A stretch of 64,000 nt of DNA from Exiguobacterium marinum DSM 16307 (GTDB taxonomy: Bacteria; Bacillota; Bacilli; Exiguobacteriales; Exiguobacteriaceae): NCBI RefSeq assembly GCF_000620845.1, contig NZ_KK211189.1:2501-66500 (forward strand), read 5' to 3'. Shown here one piece after another: positions 333-13,979 of this stretch (positions within the stretch are counted from its first letter, which is position 1; the number at the start of each line of letters is the position of its first letter). Below the pieces are notes generated by a model. It was given only the letters and a program-made list of their open reading frames with translations, made no database searches and had not been told where the DNA came from. The position numbers were made by a program, and so were the translations under genes.

Positions 333-1691
333 TTATGCGTGTGGCAAGAACATGAAGTATGCCAAGAAGATGATTAACATCCCATACATGATTGGATGAA
401 TTTCTTTTGTCTTTCCTTTCGCAATCATCATGAGTGGGTAAAGGATGAACCCAAGCCCAATTCCTGTTGCGATTGAAGATGTCAAAGGCATCATAATGAT
501 CGTCAAGAAAGCTGGTACGGCGATTTCGATTTTCTTCCAATCAATATCAAGAAGAGCCGAAGCCATGAGTACACCGACAATGATGAGCGCCGGAGCCGTG
601 ACTGGTGCCGTAACAACTGCCAAGAGAGGCGAGAAGAACAACGCCAAACCGAAGAACAATCCTGCAAAGACTGCAGTCAACCCTGTACGTCCGCCTGCCG
701 CGACACCTGCTGACGACTCAACATATGAAGTCGCTGTAGATGTTCCAAAAATCGCACCCGCTACCGTTGCTGTCGAATCAGCCATTAACGCCTTACTCGC
801 ACGTGGTACTTTGTTTTCTTTCATGATTCCCGCTTGACGCGCTACCGCGACGAGCGTTCCAGCCGTATCAAAGAAGTCGATAAAGAAGAACGTCAAGATA
901 ACAACGAGCATTTGAAGCGTGAACACATCACCGAAGTTGATGAATGCTTGACCGAATGTAGATGACATACTCGGCGGCATCGATACAACGTCTGAAATCG
1001 CTGTCGGAGTCGGCACAAGACCGAAAATCATACCGACGATTGCCGTCAACAACATCCCGATGAAAATACCACCTTTTACGTCGCGCGCCATAAGCAAGGC
1101 ACTGACGACAAGTCCGAATACCGCGAGAAGCGTCGTTCCCGTTCCAAGCGAACCAAGACCTACGAGTGTTGCTTCATTCGCAACAACGATGCCTGCATTT
1201 TTCAAACCGATGAAAGCGATGAAGAAACCAATCCCTGCAGCGACCGCCATTTTGAGCGGAGCCGGAATTGCGTTAACAATCGTTTCGCGAATCCCTGAGA
1301 GCGTCAATACGATAAAGAAGAGACCTGATACGAGTACACCTGACAAAGCCGTTTGCCATGGTATACCCATCCCGATGACGACACTGTATGCGAAGAACGC
1401 GTTGAGGCCCATGCCCGGCGCAATCGCAATTGGGTAGTTTGCGAGAAGTCCCATCGTCAACGAACCGACTACTGCGACAAGACCCGTCGCCACGAAGACC
1501 GCTCCTGTATCCATCCCTGCTGCTCCAAGAACGTTCGGGTTAACGAAGAGGATGTACGCCATCGCAAGGAACGTTGTGAAGCCTGCGACAAGTTCCGTGC
1601 GAACGCTCGTCCCGAGTGCTGTGAGTTGGAAATAGCGATCGATCCGACTCGTTGTCGTTTGTTGTTGGTCTTGCTTGAGCTGTGTGCTCAT
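333..1691 (-). CDS. pbuG: guanine/hypoxanthine permease, NCS2 family (PbuG-like)
   Basis: This is a membrane importer for guanine and hypoxanthine (452 residues). It belongs to the AzgA-like branch of the NCS2 nucleobase transporters. Visible family landmarks are AMAYILFVNP near residue 42, GMGLNAFFAYS near 92, DFFDTAGTLVAVARQAG near 273 and a GTSTATSYVESSAG segment near 313, within roughly 12-14 hydrophobic helices. The start is the ATG at 1691, which follows a clear AAGGAGG. An upstream in-frame extension would run into the riboswitch and is rejected. Position next to guaA and a guanine-type riboswitch supports purine salvage. The preference for guanine/hypoxanthine over adenine is inferred from family and riboswitch class. 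Confidence 0.92.
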   Translation of the reverse strand: MSTQLKQDQQQTTTSRIDRYFQLTALGTSVRTELVAGFTTFLAMAYILFVNPNVLGAAGMDTGAVFVATGLVAVVGSLTMGLLANYPIAIAPGMGLNAFFAYSVVIGMGIPWQTALSGVLVSGLFFIVLTLSGIRETIVNAIPAPLKMAVAAGIGFFIAFIGLKNAGIVVANEATLVGLGSLGTGTTLLAVFGLVVSALLMARDVKGGIFIGMLLTAIVGMIFGLVPTPTAISDVVSMPPSMSSTFGQAFINFGDVFTLQMLVVILTFFFIDFFDTAGTLVAVARQAGIMKENKVPRASKALMADSTATVAGAIFGTSTATSYVESSAGVAAGGRTGLTAVFAGLFFGLALFFSPLLAVVTAPVTAPALIIVGVLMASALLDIDWKKIEIAVPAFLTIIMMPLTSSIATGIGLGFILYPLMMIAKGKTKEIHPIMYGMLIIFLAYFMFLPHA

Positions 1692-1716
1692 TTGTTTTCC
1701 TCCTTGTACTCGCCGT

Positions 1717-1756
1717 AAAACGAGAAAAGGTCCCCGGCAAATGACCGAGGACCCCA
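1717..1756 (-). terminator. riboswitch expression-platform terminator of pbuG
   Basis: On the minus strand a GGTCCTCGG / CCGGGGACC hairpin is followed by TTTTCTCGTTTT. It sits between the purine aptamer and the pbuG ribosome-binding site, so ligand binding should favour premature termination. Confidence 0.75.
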
Positions 1757-1794
1757 CGCGAAACATACGAGGGCATACACCCTCATCTATGTCT

Positions 1795-1863
1795 CGCCGT
1801 AGTGAAATCATTTAAGGTGATTTCGTAGAGACTCTCGGGCCATATCCCCGATATTATACGGCA
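1795..1863 (-). promoter_or_regulatory. guanine riboswitch (purine aptamer) of pbuG
   Basis: Read on the minus strand, the region holds the purine aptamer core: a TATAAT...GGATATGG P1/J1-2/P2 segment, the AGTCTCTAC J2-3 element, a P3 hairpin with loop TTAAAT, and CACTACGG closing P1. The ligand-pairing base that corresponds to position 74 is C (in ACTACG), which marks the guanine/hypoxanthine class rather than the adenine class. It should repress pbuG when guanine is abundant. Confidence 0.93.
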
Positions 1864-2013
1864 AATTATTTTATAATTGTTCGGTTATAATAAGAACGTT
1901 CTTATCGTATCAGCGCGAAAATAGAATGTCAACTAAATTCACGGATTTTATATCTAAAAAAAACGTTAATGTTCGGTTTTAAGACAAAACAGAGGGATTC
2001 CCCTCTGTTCCGC

Positions 2014-3555
2014 TTATTCCCATTCGATTGTTGCAGGTGGCTTAGACGTAATGTCATACAGCACACGGTTGACGTGGCTGACTTCGTTGACAATCCGGAC
2101 AGAGATTTTCTCAAGTACATCCCATGGAATACGTGCCCAATCTGACGTCATCCCATCGATTGAAGTGACCGCACGAACACCGACAGCATAGTCGTACGTA
2201 CGCTCGTCACCCATGACTCCGACCGAGCGGATTGGTGTGAGCACCGTGAAGTATTGCCAGATGTCTCGTTCAAGACCTGCTTTCTTCACTTCGTCACGCA
2301 AAATAGCATCCGATTCACGGACGATTTCTAACTTCTCTTCCGTGATCTCACCGAGGACACGGATTCCGAGGCCTGGACCCGGGAACGGTTGGCGCCAAAC
2401 GATATAGTCAGGAAGACCGAGCTCGGTACCGAGCGCACGGACTTCGTCTTTAAAGAGCGTGTTGAGCGGTTCGATCAACGTGAAATTCATGTCTTCCGGT
2501 AATCCACCGACGTTATGGTGTGATTTGATCGTTTGCGCTGTATCTGTTCCGCTCTCGATGATGTCTGTATAGAGCGTCCCTTGCGCAAGGAAGTCCATAT
2601 CGACAAGTTTCGAAGCTTCTTCATCAAACACATAGATGAACTCGTTTCCGATAATCTTACGTTTTTGCTCAGGGTCTGACACACCAGCCAATTTCGTCAA
2701 GAAACGTTCTTGCGCATCGATTTTAATGACTTTCATATTAAATCCGTCTGCGAACGTCTTCATGACGCTATCCGCTTCCCCTTTACGAAGAAGACCATGG
2801 TCAACAAACATACATGTCAACTGATCACCGATTGCGCGATGAACGAGTGCCGCAACGACAGATGAATCGACTCCACCTGAAAGGGCACAAAGCACTTGTT
2901 TGTTGCCAACGATTTCACGGATTTTCTCCACTTCGATATCGATAAAGTTCTCCATCGACCATTCGCCTTTAGCACCACACACTTCATAGATGAAGTTTTT
3001 CAAGATGTCGTTTCCGTATTCTGAGTGACGGACCTCTGGGTGGTATTGTACACCATACATTTTCAGCTCATCATTTTTGATTGAAGCGACCGGACAAGAT
3101 GGGTTCGTCCCATCAACGATGAATCCTTCTGGTGCTTCCATGACGAGGTCACCGTGGCTCATCCATACTGTATGTTCGACTGGAAGACCGCTGTAAATCG
3201 CTGATGCTTCCGGCGTTGAGAACAATGTCGCTTTCCCGTATTCACGATGTGCGGCACGTTCGACACGACCACCGAAATGATGCGTCATGAGTTGCATGCC
3301 GTAACAAATTCCGAAAATCGGAATGCCGAGTTCAAAGATTTCCGGGTCGCAGCGATATGCGCCTTCCGCGTATACGCTGTTCGGTCCACCTGAGAAGATG
3401 ATGCCGACTGGGTTCAATTCGCGAATCTCGTCTGCCGTCATCTTATGCGAATGCAATTCACTGTATACGCCAAGGTCACGGACACGACGCGTGATCAACT
3501 GGTTGTACTGTCCACCAAAATCGAGCACCAAAATCATTTCTTGTTCTACTTTCAC
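2014..3555 (-). CDS. guaA: GMP synthase (glutamine-hydrolysing)
   Basis: The enzyme converts XMP, glutamine and ATP to GMP, the last step of guanine nucleotide synthesis. The N-terminal class I glutamine amidotransferase has its catalytic cysteine in GICYGMQ (Cys84) and the His-Glu pair in YHPE near residue 171. The ATP-pyrophosphatase P-loop SGGVDSS lies near residue 231. The dimerisation domain ends in the usual KPPATIEWE. Starting at the GTG at 3555, preceded by AAGGTGGAG, gives 513 residues, the length known for B. subtilis GuaA. A longer ATG start at 3585 would overlap the terminator and is rejected. The gene has its own promoter and guanine riboswitch, separate from yebA upstream. Confidence 0.97.
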
Positions 3556-10970: not shown

Positions 10971-11288
10971 TTGAATCATCGTGACCCACCTTTTTCAGAA
11001 ATTGGAGATTTGAAACAATGGGGACGTTTTGAAGTCGAAGTGCCTCATACAGGCGAACAAACGAAGTATCAAATCGCTACGGCTTTGGTTCGAAAGCATA
11101 TTCCTTTGCGGATTGGTGGATTTTATATCATTGCGAGCGAAGAGCAAATTTTGCATAGTGGCTCACATGACGGAAATTTCCAGAAGCACTTGATTCATTT
11201 ATTACAGCAAGTCCTTAACGGTCATATCAAAGACGAACGCCTCGCTCAGGAACAGGTGTGGACGGTGCACTATTTTACGACACCATAA
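10971..11288 (+). CDS. hypothetical protein, 105 residues
   Basis: The start is a TTG at 10971, 7 nt after GGAGGT. A longer in-frame ATG at 10872 has no ribosome-binding site and its first 33 codons cover the likely promoter region, so it is rejected. The product is soluble, with alternating beta and helix segments (RFEVEVPHTG, KHIPLRIGGFYIIASEEQ, HLIHLLQQVL). I recognise no family. It is alone between two terminators. Confidence 0.6.
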   Translation: MNHRDPPFSEIGDLKQWGRFEVEVPHTGEQTKYQIATALVRKHIPLRIGGFYIIASEEQILHSGSHDGNFQKHLIHLLQQVLNGHIKDERLAQEQVWTVHYFTTP

Positions 11289-11318: not shown

Positions 11319-11347
11319 AAAAAATGACGCTCCAAAAGGGCGTCATT
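11319..11347. terminator. bidirectional terminator
   Basis: An AAATGACGC / GCGTCATT hairpin with A-rich and T-rich flanks lies between the converging genes at 10971 and 11343. Confidence 0.75.
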
Positions 11348-12605
11348 CTGCTTGTGACATGATTGAAATCACTTTTTCATAGTAGTCTGTTGCTAGTTTG
11401 TATTTTCCTGAAGCTTTTAATTCTTGAGCTAACCATAAAGCATATTTTTTAGCATACATATACTCATCATGCTCTTCAAAATAAATAACTGCGCTTTTTA
11501 GACTGTTCATCACGCTTTGACGATTCTTTTCTTTGAAATGGTTCCAGTAGATATCAAAGTGCTGATTAAACTCTTCAATCGACTCGTGTTGTTGCATCAA
11601 TTCGTGTCCAGTCTCTAACCAATCAAGGACACCCTTTTCATTTTTCTGTTTTGCATTTACCTCTACCAATGATAAAACACTGAATAATTTGCTTCTAATA
11701 TCCACTTTATATTCAAAGCTTTCCATAAAGTACGTAAGTGCCTTATCTTGTTCACCTAACAACGAATAGATTTCTCCTATGTTGTTATAAAGCATGCCGT
11801 AATAATTTCTTAGATCAGTCGCATTCGCAACCTTTAGTGCCTTTTGATTGTAGGAAAGTGCATCTGCATATCGTTTTCGACGTTTATAAGTCAATCCAAT
11901 TATCATGTGACACTCAATCATTCTTTCTAAACAAAAATTCTCTTGAAAATACCTTAACGAAGACTGAAGATTTTCAAGCGCTTGTATATTGTCTGTGAAA
12001 CGGTAATATAAAGCACCCGTTACATAACGAATATCCGCTGTCTCCCAATCAGGAATTCCTGAATGGGGTAACTTTTCAGTCACTTCTTCTATTAATTTAT
12101 ATGAAAGTTCTTTTTCATTCTCCTGAAAGTACTGAAGTGCTTTCAACATGTTATACCGAATGCGATCGTCAGTGGATAGTTGATCTTCAATCCAGCCTAC
12201 TTCTGTGAGGTACTTTGGGTCGCCTCCTGGCATCACGCCAAGACGAGCCAATGTGATCATAAGCGTAGTGTAAACTGATTTTGACTGTTTGACCGCTGGA
12301 TGGTTCATATATTTTCTAACTTTCTCCTGCTCATCACCATTTTTCCGCGTCAAAATCGCTTCTTTCAAAATCTCTCTAATTTCTTTAATTACTTTCTCTG
12401 CTTGATACCTAAAGTCATGATACAGGGGTACTTCAATTTCAAGTCGCTCAAACAACAGTTCAAGAACTTCCTCACTAGCAGATGTTTGATTGTTTTCAAT
12501 TTTACTTAAGTACGAAATCGAACAAATCCCCCTGGCTAAGACTGATTGTTTCATATTTTGCCGCAAGCGCTCTACTCTAATTAAATTCCCATAATTGTAT
12601 TCCAT
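11343..12605 (-). CDS. RRNPP-type (NprR/PlcR-like) peptide-responsive regulator
   Basis: The 420-residue protein has an N-terminal XRE-type helix-turn-helix (about 6-60; the recognition region is ISYLSKIENNQTSASEEVLELL). About 300 residues of tetratricopeptide-like helical repeats follow, for example YNQKALKVANATDLRNYYG, YNNIGEIYSLLGEQDKALTY and YALWLAQELKASGKYKLA. This is the domain plan of RRNPP quorum-sensing receptors, in which a re-imported peptide binds the TPR domain and alters DNA binding. The length is close to NprR (about 420) and longer than PlcR (about 285). The gene is divergent from the unknown gene at 12847, behind which lies a pro-peptide gene with PRIV repeats, the obvious candidate ligand. 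The base composition is more AT-rich than most neighbours. Confidence 0.82.
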   Translation of the reverse strand: MEYNYGNLIRVERLRQNMKQSVLARGICSISYLSKIENNQTSASEEVLELLFERLEIEVPLYHDFRYQAEKVIKEIREILKEAILTRKNGDEQEKVRKYMNHPAVKQSKSVYTTLMITLARLGVMPGGDPKYLTEVGWIEDQLSTDDRIRYNMLKALQYFQENEKELSYKLIEEVTEKLPHSGIPDWETADIRYVTGALYYRFTDNIQALENLQSSLRYFQENFCLERMIECHMIIGLTYKRRKRYADALSYNQKALKVANATDLRNYYGMLYNNIGEIYSLLGEQDKALTYFMESFEYKVDIRSKLFSVLSLVEVNAKQKNEKGVLDWLETGHELMQQHESIEEFNQHFDIYWNHFKEKNRQSVMNSLKSAVIYFEEHDEYMYAKKYALWLAQELKASGKYKLATDYYEKVISIMSQAE

Positions 12606-12846
12606 TATTAGTAGTAGCCCCTTTGCCCTATTTTCTGAACTTCTTTTAATATTTCTTCATAATTATATACTTTCAGGAAATTTAGCCTATAATTCTTATT
12701 TTAATTCATCTTTTTACAAGAAACTTTCCCAACTTAAACATGTCCATTACCATAAAAAAACATGATAAGATTTAACTAGTCAACAAGCAATGATTTGGGC
12801 TTTAGTTCTATTATTTAGAAAACAATGAACATTTCGTAGGAGGTAG
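12606..12846. promoter_or_regulatory. divergent intergenic region of the peptide-signalling locus
   Basis: This AT-rich stretch must hold the promoters of both the regulator (minus) and the 12847 gene (plus). On the minus strand a TATAAT lies near 12665-12670. On the plus strand an inverted repeat, CATGT...ACATG (about 12738-12764), overlaps a TAAGAT that could be a -10 box, making it a candidate operator for the regulator. No riboswitch or terminator is seen. Confidence 0.4.
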
Positions 12847-13539
12847 ATGGTGCAAATGGGGAAGCTTAGCTTTTTACTTGCTGAAGATTATATTAAACCA
12901 AAAATCTACTTTAAATCGAAATTTTCTACACCGTCTACAATCGTAGACCATTCATATTCGAAAGAAGATTTAAATCATTTCGAAGGATTAGAGAATTTGA
13001 CAGAGTTATTATCTTCTAATAAGGGTTTCATTGTAAGTGCATTTCAAATCGACTACTACCAGCGTCTCCCCAAATTAATTTCAAAGACGTTGAAAGTAAA
13101 TCGCTCTTTCAAAAAACTTTATATTTTGGGTCCGGAATTATCCTTATCAATTTTGAAAAGAAGCACTAAGACTGCTTATGAAGCACAACTTCAAGATTAC
13201 GAGTTTATCAACATTGAACAGGACTCAACTTCATTATCTAAACAATGTGAAACGCTATTGAGCGAAGGTCACATTTTGTACATTCTTCCTGAGGCATCCG
13301 TGTGCTGGCAACCTAATTCATTAGAGCAACTGCAGAAAGTTTGTACTCCACTTTGTAGTACTTTATTAAGTCAAACTATGAAAGTACCGATCTTGGCTAC
13401 TTTAGCGAAGAATGACTCTAATAAAGTCACCATCTATGAGCCAAGTTTACCTGAAACCTATTCAGGAGACTTATTCAATTCAGTTAAAGAACAGTCTGAG
13501 GATATCTATAAGCTTTTGAAATCCACAGATGACTTGTAA
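12847..13539 (+). CDS. unknown protein beside the pro-peptide, remote LABLAT-acyltransferase-like pattern
   Basis: The product is up to 230 residues. Three possible starts lie close together (ATG 12847, GTG 12850, ATG 12856) after AGGAGG; GTG 12850 has the best spacing. It is soluble, with no signal peptide or membrane helix. The layout GFIVSAFQIDYYQRLPKLI, then LSEGHILYILPEASVCW and KVPILATLA, faintly recalls lysophospholipid acyltransferases of the LpxL type, but no HX4D/E motif is present, so I do not assign an activity. The gene is AT-rich. It stands between the divergent RRNPP-type regulator and the pro-peptide gene, 66 nt before the latter, so it may be co-transcribed with it. A role in peptide maturation, or as a regulated target, is speculation. 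Confidence 0.6.
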   Translation: MVQMGKLSFLLAEDYIKPKIYFKSKFSTPSTIVDHSYSKEDLNHFEGLENLTELLSSNKGFIVSAFQIDYYQRLPKLISKTLKVNRSFKKLYILGPELSLSILKRSTKTAYEAQLQDYEFINIEQDSTSLSKQCETLLSEGHILYILPEASVCWQPNSLEQLQKVCTPLCSTLLSQTMKVPILATLAKNDSNKVTIYEPSLPETYSGDLFNSVKEQSEDIYKLLKSTDDL

Positions 13540-13605
13540 CTCATTTTATTTTCGTTGGTATTAAGAGTTTTCTATATAAATCATTATACAACGGAGGAAT
13601 TAAAC

Positions 13606-13806
13606 ATGAAAAAGTTAGCTGGATTTTTCTTTATCGCAACTGCAGTTATTTTACTCGGAAGTTCTTTTAAACCATTTGCAGAAGAAAGACCACGCATTGT
13701 TAAAATCGAAGAACCGATTATTATTAATGCTGAGGAAAGACCACGCATTGTTCAAGTTGAAATTCCAGAAAAAATCAATAATGAGAGCATGCCACGCATC
13801 GTATAA
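13606..13806 (+). CDS. secreted pro-peptide with three PRIV repeats, candidate quorum-sensing pheromone
   Basis: The 66-residue product starts at the ATG after ACGGAGGAATTAAAC. Residues 1-25 are a signal peptide: MKK, then a hydrophobic core AGFFFIATAVILLGSS, then a likely cleavage after KPFA. The rest is built of units with an exact 17-residue period: ERPRIV at 27-32, ERPRIV at 44-49 and SMPRIV at 61-66, the last ending the protein. The first two units are also nearly identical as DNA. A signal peptide, short C-terminal peptide units and an RRNPP-type receptor nearby are the hallmarks of PapR/NprX-type pheromones. As I recall it, mature NprX is SKPDIVG, which shares S-x-P-x-I-V with SMPRIV. 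Function is inferred. Confidence 0.8.
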   Translation: MKKLAGFFFIATAVILLGSSFKPFAEERPRIVKIEEPIIINAEERPRIVQVEIPEKINNESMPRIV

Positions 13807-13817
13807 TCATATTTTTC

Positions 13818-13842
13818 AAAGACGCCTCGTGCGTCTTTTTTA
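13818..13842 (+). terminator. terminator of the pro-peptide gene
   Basis: An AAAGACGC / GCGTCTTTTTT hairpin lies 12 nt after the pro-peptide stop. Confidence 0.85.
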
Positions 13843-13979
13843 TTTTAAGAAAAAAGGTAAATGAATTATATATTTCTCTCCATTTTTTACTTTTTACTTA
13901 TATAATAAACAAAGACAACTCAGATGTACTCTCATATGCCGTCATTGTCGCTAGTTTATTGAATAGAGGAGTTTGAACA

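Follow-up and report, generated by a model that had tools for sequence, protein, structure and literature searches.

The window analysed here, a stretch of 64,000 nucleotides from Exiguobacterium marinum DSM 16307, carries two divergently oriented transcription units. On one strand lies the gene for a 420-amino-acid regulator (11343..12605, minus strand) which Pfam matches, profile comparison and predicted fold describe as an NprR-like receptor with an HTH and nine TPRs; its length, domains and orientation opposite to the precursor gene are as the earlier note had claimed. On the other lies an apparent operon of two genes, the second of which (13606..13806, plus strand; ATG at 13606, stop codon ending at 13806) encodes a 66-residue putative pheromone precursor with a signal-like N-terminus and is preceded by an RBS-like GGAGGA (13593-13598). 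The gene between regulator and precursor is present as had been noted (ORF 12847-13539, plus strand), but its product, referred to below as the middle protein, is more likely to have 227 than 230 residues (12856..13539, plus strand), since all 18 loci share the MGKL start at 12856. The precursor gene lies about 1 kb from the receptor start. A terminator-like hairpin (13818..13838, plus strand) stands at the operon end; judged by eye, hairpin and T-run follow the precursor in the 17-locus alignment, with a different hairpin in locus L027.

Coordinates bear out the three PRIV units attributed to the precursor, EERPRIV (13681..13701), EERPRIV (13732..13752) and ESMPRIV (13783..13803), all on the plus strand, with spacings of 17 and 17 residues and the last unit forming the C-terminus. 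Unit 3 differs from the other two by SM in place of ER and by NN instead of A ahead of it, and units 1 and 2 are identical at 20 of 21 bases, so that this pair may be recent. Of 100,000 shuffles, 101 gave a 4-mer three times over in the 46 residues that follow position 20; conservation is the stronger evidence for the repeats. Tandem units are found in all 17 readable precursors of the genus, always with the last one at the C-terminus, in two copies (one precursor), three (one), four (12) or five (three) and mostly with spacers of 10 residues; locus L030 has two clear units spaced by 23 and one decayed unit. All 17 have the form of a short precursor with the signal at the C-terminus and, as judged from the sequence, are likely to be secreted. 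The shared ending proposed earlier holds within the genus as PR[IL]x, while PRIV itself is not invariant: the pattern is [DE][DES]xPR[IL]x, in 14 versions that differ by lineage, 10 of which are the commonest unit of some precursor. In 11 of the 17 precursors the 7-mer is uniform throughout, though codons often differ. Unit pairs are not independent and approach saturation at synonymous sites; with these limits, core positions 3 and 7 (free in the pattern) share their residue in 185 of 212 pairs and their codon in 107, residues in the spacers are identical in 297 of 550 comparisons, and dN/dS is 0.03 in the core, part of which the unit pattern itself fixes, versus 0.30 in the spacer. The precursor matched no Pfam or NCBIfam family with E up to 1, and a search of its own genome for the PRI-type codon pattern gave 9 matches (two of them known units) versus 11 with the reversed pattern.

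The arrangement is conserved across Exiguobacterium. The regulator is kept in 18 of 19 genomes, as is the middle protein, which was found in none of 19 genomes of the sister genus, and in each of 17 loci the precursor gene occupies the second place of the divergent operon. Regulator loci devoid of a peptide, which the earlier note had suggested looking for as a counterexample to its proposal, were not found in the genus; the precursor is present in all 17 loci whose contig covers the place. E. profundum PHM 11 has an intact precursor and a broken regulator frame. The one Exiguobacterium genome that lacks the system shows no empty site, since its matches to the flanking amidase and kinase reach only 41-42%. 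The genome under study also encodes a 406-amino-acid HTH-TPR paralogue, with no convincing precursor within about 1.5 kb on each side. Neither the middle protein nor the precursor was found on plasmids by tblastn, and a viral-contig scan with the middle protein only left none of 64 candidates confirmed.

Conserved elements between the divergent genes are suggestive of a control region. All 18 loci contain the sequence TTTCCCAA at a constant 41 nt ahead of a -10-like hexamer, with GGAAA, AGAAA or TGAAA located 48-50 nt upstream of TTTCCCAA in every one of them. In the window, the corresponding boxes are CAGGAAA near the regulator promoter (12674..12680, no strand assigned) and TTTCCCAAC ahead of the middle gene (12725..12733, plus strand), whose 9-mer has one exact copy in the window versus 0.45 expected by chance; both boxes are candidate operator half-sites. 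The extended -10-like element TGATAAGAT (12763..12771, plus strand) holds its position in 18 of 18 loci and may be the promoter of the operon; a consensus promoter scan requiring a -35 did not report it.

The regulator matches Pfam HTH_3 (31.8 bits, cut-off 23) and TPR_12 (52.6 bits, cut-off 30.1), and its AF2 model (pLDDT 93) has four short helices followed by 19 helices which, judged by eye and counting 92-101 and 103-107 as one, form nine pairs, that is, an HTH followed by a nine-repeat TPR superhelix. As to its closest solved relative, profiles favour NprR, the single sequence finds Rap but no NprR, and fold scores tie. A family profile gave 3.9e-46 for NprR versus 3.4e-37 for Rap3T, and a genus-only profile, which aligns to NprR from residue 192 onward only, gave 2.3e-10 versus 3.4e-9. 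Engineered TPR proteins score higher than both NprR and Rap, and NprR 4gpk is the best non-engineered solved protein by profile. With the window regulator alone and E up to 1, phmmer found Rap proteins and not NprR, and comparison of the TPR-domain fold returned Rap (Z 29.6) and NprR 5dbk (Z 28.9, rmsd 3.4 over 343 residues). By profile and predicted fold, the receptor belongs with NprR and Rap. Its N275, invariant (67 of 67), aligns to the Asn of NprR SNMG and of RappLS20 HNLG, and may be the equivalent of RapF Asn227, reported to be strictly conserved in RNPP proteins and to hold the peptide backbone (PMC3601957). Within the regulator, the HTH has diverged less than the TPR domain (mean distance 0.13 versus 0.37).

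Peptide and receptor vary together. In 15 genomes, peptide distance follows TPR distance with a partial r of 0.68 (0 of 2000 permutations) after correction for the distances of the middle protein, the HTH and two flanking genes (amidase and histidine kinase), the other four distances keeping a partial r of -0.26 to 0.19 only once the TPR domain is included; the genomes are related, so that these permutation counts, and the shuffle counts that follow, overstate certainty. Beyond the genus, a short ORF that looks secreted follows closely on the receptor gene in 54 of 64 distant full-length relatives, and 10 have no qualifying ORF nearby. When the motifs were derived from genus sequences only, [DE][DES]xP was found in 26 of the 54 ORFs (shuffled mean 4.9, maximum 12) and [DE][DES]xPR in 10 (mean 0.06, maximum 1), most ORFs with the related core being single-copy; PR[IL] shows no enrichment beyond the genus (2 of 54, compared with 0.4 and at most 3 in shuffles). 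An initial motif, present in 37 of the 54 (14.4 on average and at most 22 in shuffles), was circular, having been written after the distant ORFs were seen, and was replaced by these genus-only motifs. The reading put forward in the earlier note appears largely right, being supported by co-diversification of peptide and TPR domain, by the distant adjacent ORFs and by the NprR/Rap profile and fold; the peptide may bind this receptor.

Pfam, NCBIfam and PDB sequence searches with the middle protein yielded chance-level matches only and no family. Residues 32-227 are predicted to adopt an LPLAT (lysophospholipid acyltransferase-like) fold (model pLDDT 78), with PatA (Z 12.4), PlsC (10.2) and LpxM (10.1) among the matches; the top 13 rows of the fold comparison, at Z 12.4 to 8.0, are PatA, LpxM, PlsC or GPAT, followed by an unrelated row (7.5), and PatA accounts for all 12 Foldseek matches below 0.001 (TM 0.41-0.49). 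With eight PF03279 proteins of the same class, hhalign gave a weak match (probability 8%, pairwise E 0.004); with three others it aligned 30 columns only (probability 1.3%). No receptor-pheromone pair was seen among the six longest ORFs of each PF03279 locus. LPLAT acyltransferases share a catalytic HX4D/E motif. The 18 middle-protein orthologues have invariant A62 F63 Q64 and D66 Y67 Y68 Q69 and, with column equivalence to solved enzymes being approximate, no His after the first strand and hence no such motif, for which reason the middle protein is probably not an acyltransferase.

We consider it highly probable that this locus is an RRNPPA-type quorum-sensing system of the nine-TPR (NprR/Rap) branch whose peptide-loaded regulator activates its own precursor operon. 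From the gene anatomy, conservation, repeat structure, peptide/TPR co-diversification and folds computed here, we infer export, cleavage, uptake, binding, direction of regulation and a role for the middle protein as follows. The precursor would be exported by Sec and trimmed by signal peptidase and extracellular proteases to several peptides of about seven residues (acid-acid-x-PR[IL]-x), which an oligopeptide permease would bring back in; the genome has five matches to SBP_bac_5 (peptide-binding proteins). Held in the TPR superhelix, the peptide would allow the regulator to switch on the divergent promoter of the middle and precursor genes in a positive feedback loop, and the acyltransferase-like middle protein, made alongside, would be an output or a partner. 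Against the proposal, the precursor gene lies apart from the receptor gene, unlike in the described Bacillales systems. More tentatively, and with the balance leaning somewhat against it, the locus may be a three-part module in which a dead LPLAT-fold protein has come to serve as a conserved partner under pheromone control, and pocket and pheromone have co-diversified into about 10 lineage dialects within one genus, the copies moving in concert.

Other readings account for part of these data. The regulator might act mainly through protein-protein contact, like NprR on Spo0F, the peptide switching that contact and not operon transcription, as the good fit of the TPR fold to Rap as well as NprR and the reported bifunctionality of NprR (PMC4970707) would allow; the better conservation of the HTH, the fixed boxes in the divergent control region and the description of Exiguobacterium as non-spore-forming (PMC5521131) make this unlikely. 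Less probable still is an effector role, in which the tandem units would be a secreted bacteriocin-like or surface-binding repeat peptide whose gene the TPR regulator merely controls while sensing something else. The non-adjacent receptor gene and the apparent operon with a second protein are compatible with such an effector, but peptide variation follows the receptor TPR domain and not the neighbouring genes, distant receptors adjoin short secreted-like ORFs with a related core, and the precursor matches no Pfam or NCBIfam family. It seems very improbable that the repeats are mere products of slippage that persist without a function: copy number does differ among genomes (2 to 5) and in the window the DNA of the first two units is almost the same, but in the 17 precursors the copies vary at synonymous sites and hold their amino acids, unlike the spacers. 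The pheromone reading is of wider interest because it bears on how, in RRNPPA systems, a signal present in several copies and its receptor change specificity together. Exiguobacterium, with 14 unit versions, constant synteny, a receptor that can be identified, and copies differing mostly in codons and not residues, offers a ready series in which such change is testable. The locus provides a candidate peptide signal for this genus, for which none was described in the literature searched, and the middle protein represents an unnamed protein family. A precursor about 1 kb away would be expected to be missed by RRNPP_detector, whose default, as given in PMC10075063, is an adjacent precursor within -60 to 400 bp.

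Among known systems, NprR-NprX of the Bacillus cereus group likewise combines an HTH and nine-TPR receptor of similar length with a short secreted precursor, and NprX, given as SKPDIVG in PMC5641580 in agreement with the earlier note, shares an x-P-x-I-V core with the peptide of this locus. The NprX precursor gene is directly downstream of the receptor gene, whereas here it is second in a divergent operon with an extra middle gene, for which reason the locus is classed as an NprR-like variant and not as NprR-NprX. Multiple copies, which had been thought unusual, are so in RRNPPA systems overall (6.7% of atypically long propeptides) but common in long NprR propeptides, where repeats are reported in 17 of 17 atypically long ones (PMC9765709); multi-copy precursors are thus already known for NprR systems. 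Phr3T and Phr105 of Rap systems also carry several pheromone copies in one Sec-exported propeptide, and these duplicated pheromones were shown to be produced and active (PMC11343458). The Rap proteins of those systems lack the HTH present here, and in Phr105 a spacer of 4 residues separates two copies, compared to 2-5 copies with mostly 10-residue spacers in Exiguobacterium. The middle protein shares its predicted fold with the PatA, PlsC and LpxM acyltransferases and differs from them in having no His after the first strand. As far as our searches extended, what is new is Exiguobacterium as host genus, the relocated precursor gene and an LPLAT-fold middle protein without HX4D/E.

Re-reading of the region bore out the earlier description of a regulator, a divergent middle ORF and a three-unit precursor. 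The regulator (11343-12605, minus strand; 420 aa) is separated from the precursor (13606-13806; 66 aa) by the middle gene, which encodes 227 aa from a start at 12856 chosen by conservation; both of the latter genes are divergent from the regulator, and a terminator-like hairpin follows the precursor at 13818-13838. The precursor has a basic N-terminus, then a hydrophobic stretch, then the units EERPRIV, EERPRIV and ESMPRIV at 17-residue spacing, the third forming the C-terminus. The genome harbouring the locus is 2.8 Mb in size. A 97-aa ORF at 10995-11288 (plus strand), convergent with the regulator, had no match in Pfam or NCBIfam at E values of up to 1. A block AATTAxATATT..CTCCATTTTTT at about 13855-13905, common to most of 17 aligned loci, lies 3' of the operon terminator and 5' of an SH3-amidase gene, and is apparently separate from the pheromone operon.

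Pfam finds HTH_3 and TPR in the regulator. With a 67-row family profile, NprR (4gpk) was the best non-engineered solved protein (3.9e-46), followed by Rap (3.4e-37); a genus-only profile likewise placed NprR before Rap with weaker scores, and the window regulator alone picked up Rap proteins, the best at 3.3e-6, but missed NprR. Its AF2 model (pLDDT 93) fits the TPR domains of Rap (Z 29.6) and NprR (Z 28.9) equally. N275, invariant in all 67 family rows, shares an alignment column with the Asn in the SNMG of NprR. The profile and fold matches thus place the regulator in the nine-TPR branch holding NprR, QssR and Rap, termed clan B in a section of PMC12700828.

The regulator is encoded in 18 of 19 same-genus genomes (own genome counted; 57-100% identity) and was not found in the remaining one, G011; 15 of the 18 carriers correspond to named Exiguobacterium records, including E. 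aurantiacum, alkaliphilum, algae, chiriqhucha, qingdaonense, aestuarii and profundum. The middle protein is encoded by exactly these 18 genomes, and by 0/19 genomes of the sister genus. A search for genus homologues keeping the regulator without a peptide turned up a precursor in 17/17 loci whose contig extends to its place, G002 being left out as its contig stops 146 bp past the middle gene. In E. profundum PHM 11 (L042, 2131-3258) the regulator frame is broken near the C-terminus and the five-copy precursor is intact; either sequencing error or decay may be the cause.

Repeats as such are already known; what makes these interesting is how uniform they are as protein sequence. The 17 precursors carry two (one precursor), three (that of the window), four (twelve) or five copies (three), at a period of 17 except in L028 (18, 18, 17) and L030 (23), the first unit of the latter having decayed to lack the P and R that the unit pattern demands. 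Fourteen distinct 7-mers occur, several of them in two or three genomes, and ten serve as the commonest unit of some precursor (EERPRIV, EEAPRIT, DEMPRLT, DERPRLF, EELPRLG, DDFPRLT, DEMPRIG, EDLPRLT, EDFPRLA, DDMPRIV). Positions 3 and 7, which the pattern leaves free, vary most between lineages; between copies within a precursor their residue is identical in 185/212 comparisons, their codon in only 107/212, and spacer residues agree in 297/550. Pooled pN/pS is 0.046/0.653 in the core vs 0.266/0.579 in spacers. These comparisons carry three caveats: non-independent pairs, synonymous sites close to saturation, and a core that is partly conditioned by the pattern. Residues kept while codons differ, together with this core-spacer difference, argue that most copies are not fresh duplications and that selection keeps them alike. 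Against old copies counts the window itself, where units 1 and 2 share 20/21 bases and may be a recent pair.

Divergence between lineages appears to involve the receptor. The distance between commonest 7-mers follows TPR-domain distance (partial r 0.68, 15 genomes; 0/2000 permutations, an optimistic count as the genomes are related) once distances of the middle protein, the flanking amidase, the histidine kinase fragment and the HTH are removed; with TPR included, these four gave partial r values of -0.26, -0.11, 0.19 and -0.02, permutations being run for the TPR correlation only. Mean distance is 0.37 for TPR vs 0.13 for HTH (16 genomes). Joint transfer alone should have carried the middle gene along, since it separates the precursor from the TPR coding region. 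We consider co-diversification with the receptor one of the interesting parts of the locus.

Another is the third, apparently LPLAT-like protein. The middle protein had no family match in Pfam, NCBIfam or PDB sequence searches. The top thirteen VIA rows for its AF2 model (pLDDT 78; first 28 residues below 50, residues 1-19 being nearly invariant despite this) are LPLAT-fold acyltransferases (PatA Z 12.4, PlsC 10.2, LpxM 10.1, GPAT 8.0-8.2), and all 12 Foldseek matches below 0.001 are PatA (TM 0.41-0.49). LPLATs carry HX4D/E after the first strand; the 18 orthologues have A-F-Q-x-D-Y-Y-Q there, with no His. Fold and missing His suggest a non-catalytic relative, which may be an output or partner of the signalling system. 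Literature searches combining RRNPP and acyltransferase returned nothing related, judged by titles.

In 18/18 loci, TTTCCCAA lies exactly 41 nt 5' of an extended -10-like TGaTAnnATt, and a putative GGAAA-like half-site lies 48-50 nt upstream of TTTCCCAA. This arrangement would suit a putative activator at a promoter that lacks a good -35. A consensus promoter scan found promoter-like sites no commoner than in shuffles, and none at the TTTCCCAA/TGaTAnnATt place.

The best 80 of 311 relatives comprise 15 from Exiguobacterium and 65 others, mostly Bacillales by name (24-32% identity). Among these 80, a secreted-like ORF (30-140 aa, start at -30 to +320 nt relative to the receptor's stop codon) adjoins 54/64 full-length distant receptors. 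Motifs fixed from genus units alone were scored after the signal region against 500 shuffles in these 54 ORFs, which include close relatives and hence are not independent: [DE][DES]xP occurs in 26 (shuffled mean 4.9, maximum 12), [DE][DES]xPR in 10 (mean 0.06, maximum 1), and PR[IL], not enriched, in two (mean 0.4, maximum 3). The expectation of a nearby secreted-like ORF held in all readable loci of the genus (17/17), with PR[IL]x as the constant part of the unit; outside it, the acid-acid-x-P core is enriched and PR[IL] is not. With these pairs, the pairing of receptor family and peptide rests on more than the window. Repeated pheromone-like units were seen by eye in six of the 54 (L074, L087, L102, L103, L105, L111). 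In these six loci, which belong to Bacillus pinisoli, Rummeliibacillus suwonensis, Mesobacillus foraminis, Metabacillus indicus, Salimicrobium halophilum and an uncultured Bacillaceae, the units lie close behind an NprR-like receptor.

In the sister genus, G032 encodes a receptor of similar length and kind (6.3e-64), G037 gives a partial match, and most remaining matches are regulators of about 290-320 aa. At L186 in G032, the NprR-like receptor (1450-2763, plus strand) faces a convergent 125-aa secreted-like ORF (2893-3270, minus strand) with five tandem units, four SEQDYPGAGK and one SEQDPGAGK, and so is a further candidate for a multi-copy precursor, one that uses another code. L188, L189, L190 and L194 hold paired neighbouring HTH-TPR regulators of PlcR size (about 291-316 aa), and inspection of these four loci revealed no convincing precursor beside them.

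The literature searched, partly by title and abstract start, yielded no RRNPP or peptide-pheromone system of Exiguobacterium; large surveys may list these receptors in supplementary tables, which lay outside the search. NprR is annotated automatically in Exiguobacterium A1b/GX59, and the passage of PMC5521131 concerned mentions no peptide. Passages in two papers describe RRNPPA precursors as 50-120 aa long with Sec exit (PMC11343458) and multi-copy propeptides with up to six (PMC9765709) or eight copies (PMC11343458), duplicated Phr pheromones being produced and active (PMC11343458). The earlier note had called repeated copies unusual, which fits long propeptides as a whole (6.7% multi-copy) but not the atypically long NprR propeptides (17/17), as far as that part of PMC9765709 goes. 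In the genus the precursor lies behind a divergent middle gene, whereas in most of the distant relatives (54/64) a secreted-like ORF lies close behind the receptor, and we therefore describe the locus as a predicted NprR-like RRNPPA quorum-sensing system of variant three-gene architecture.
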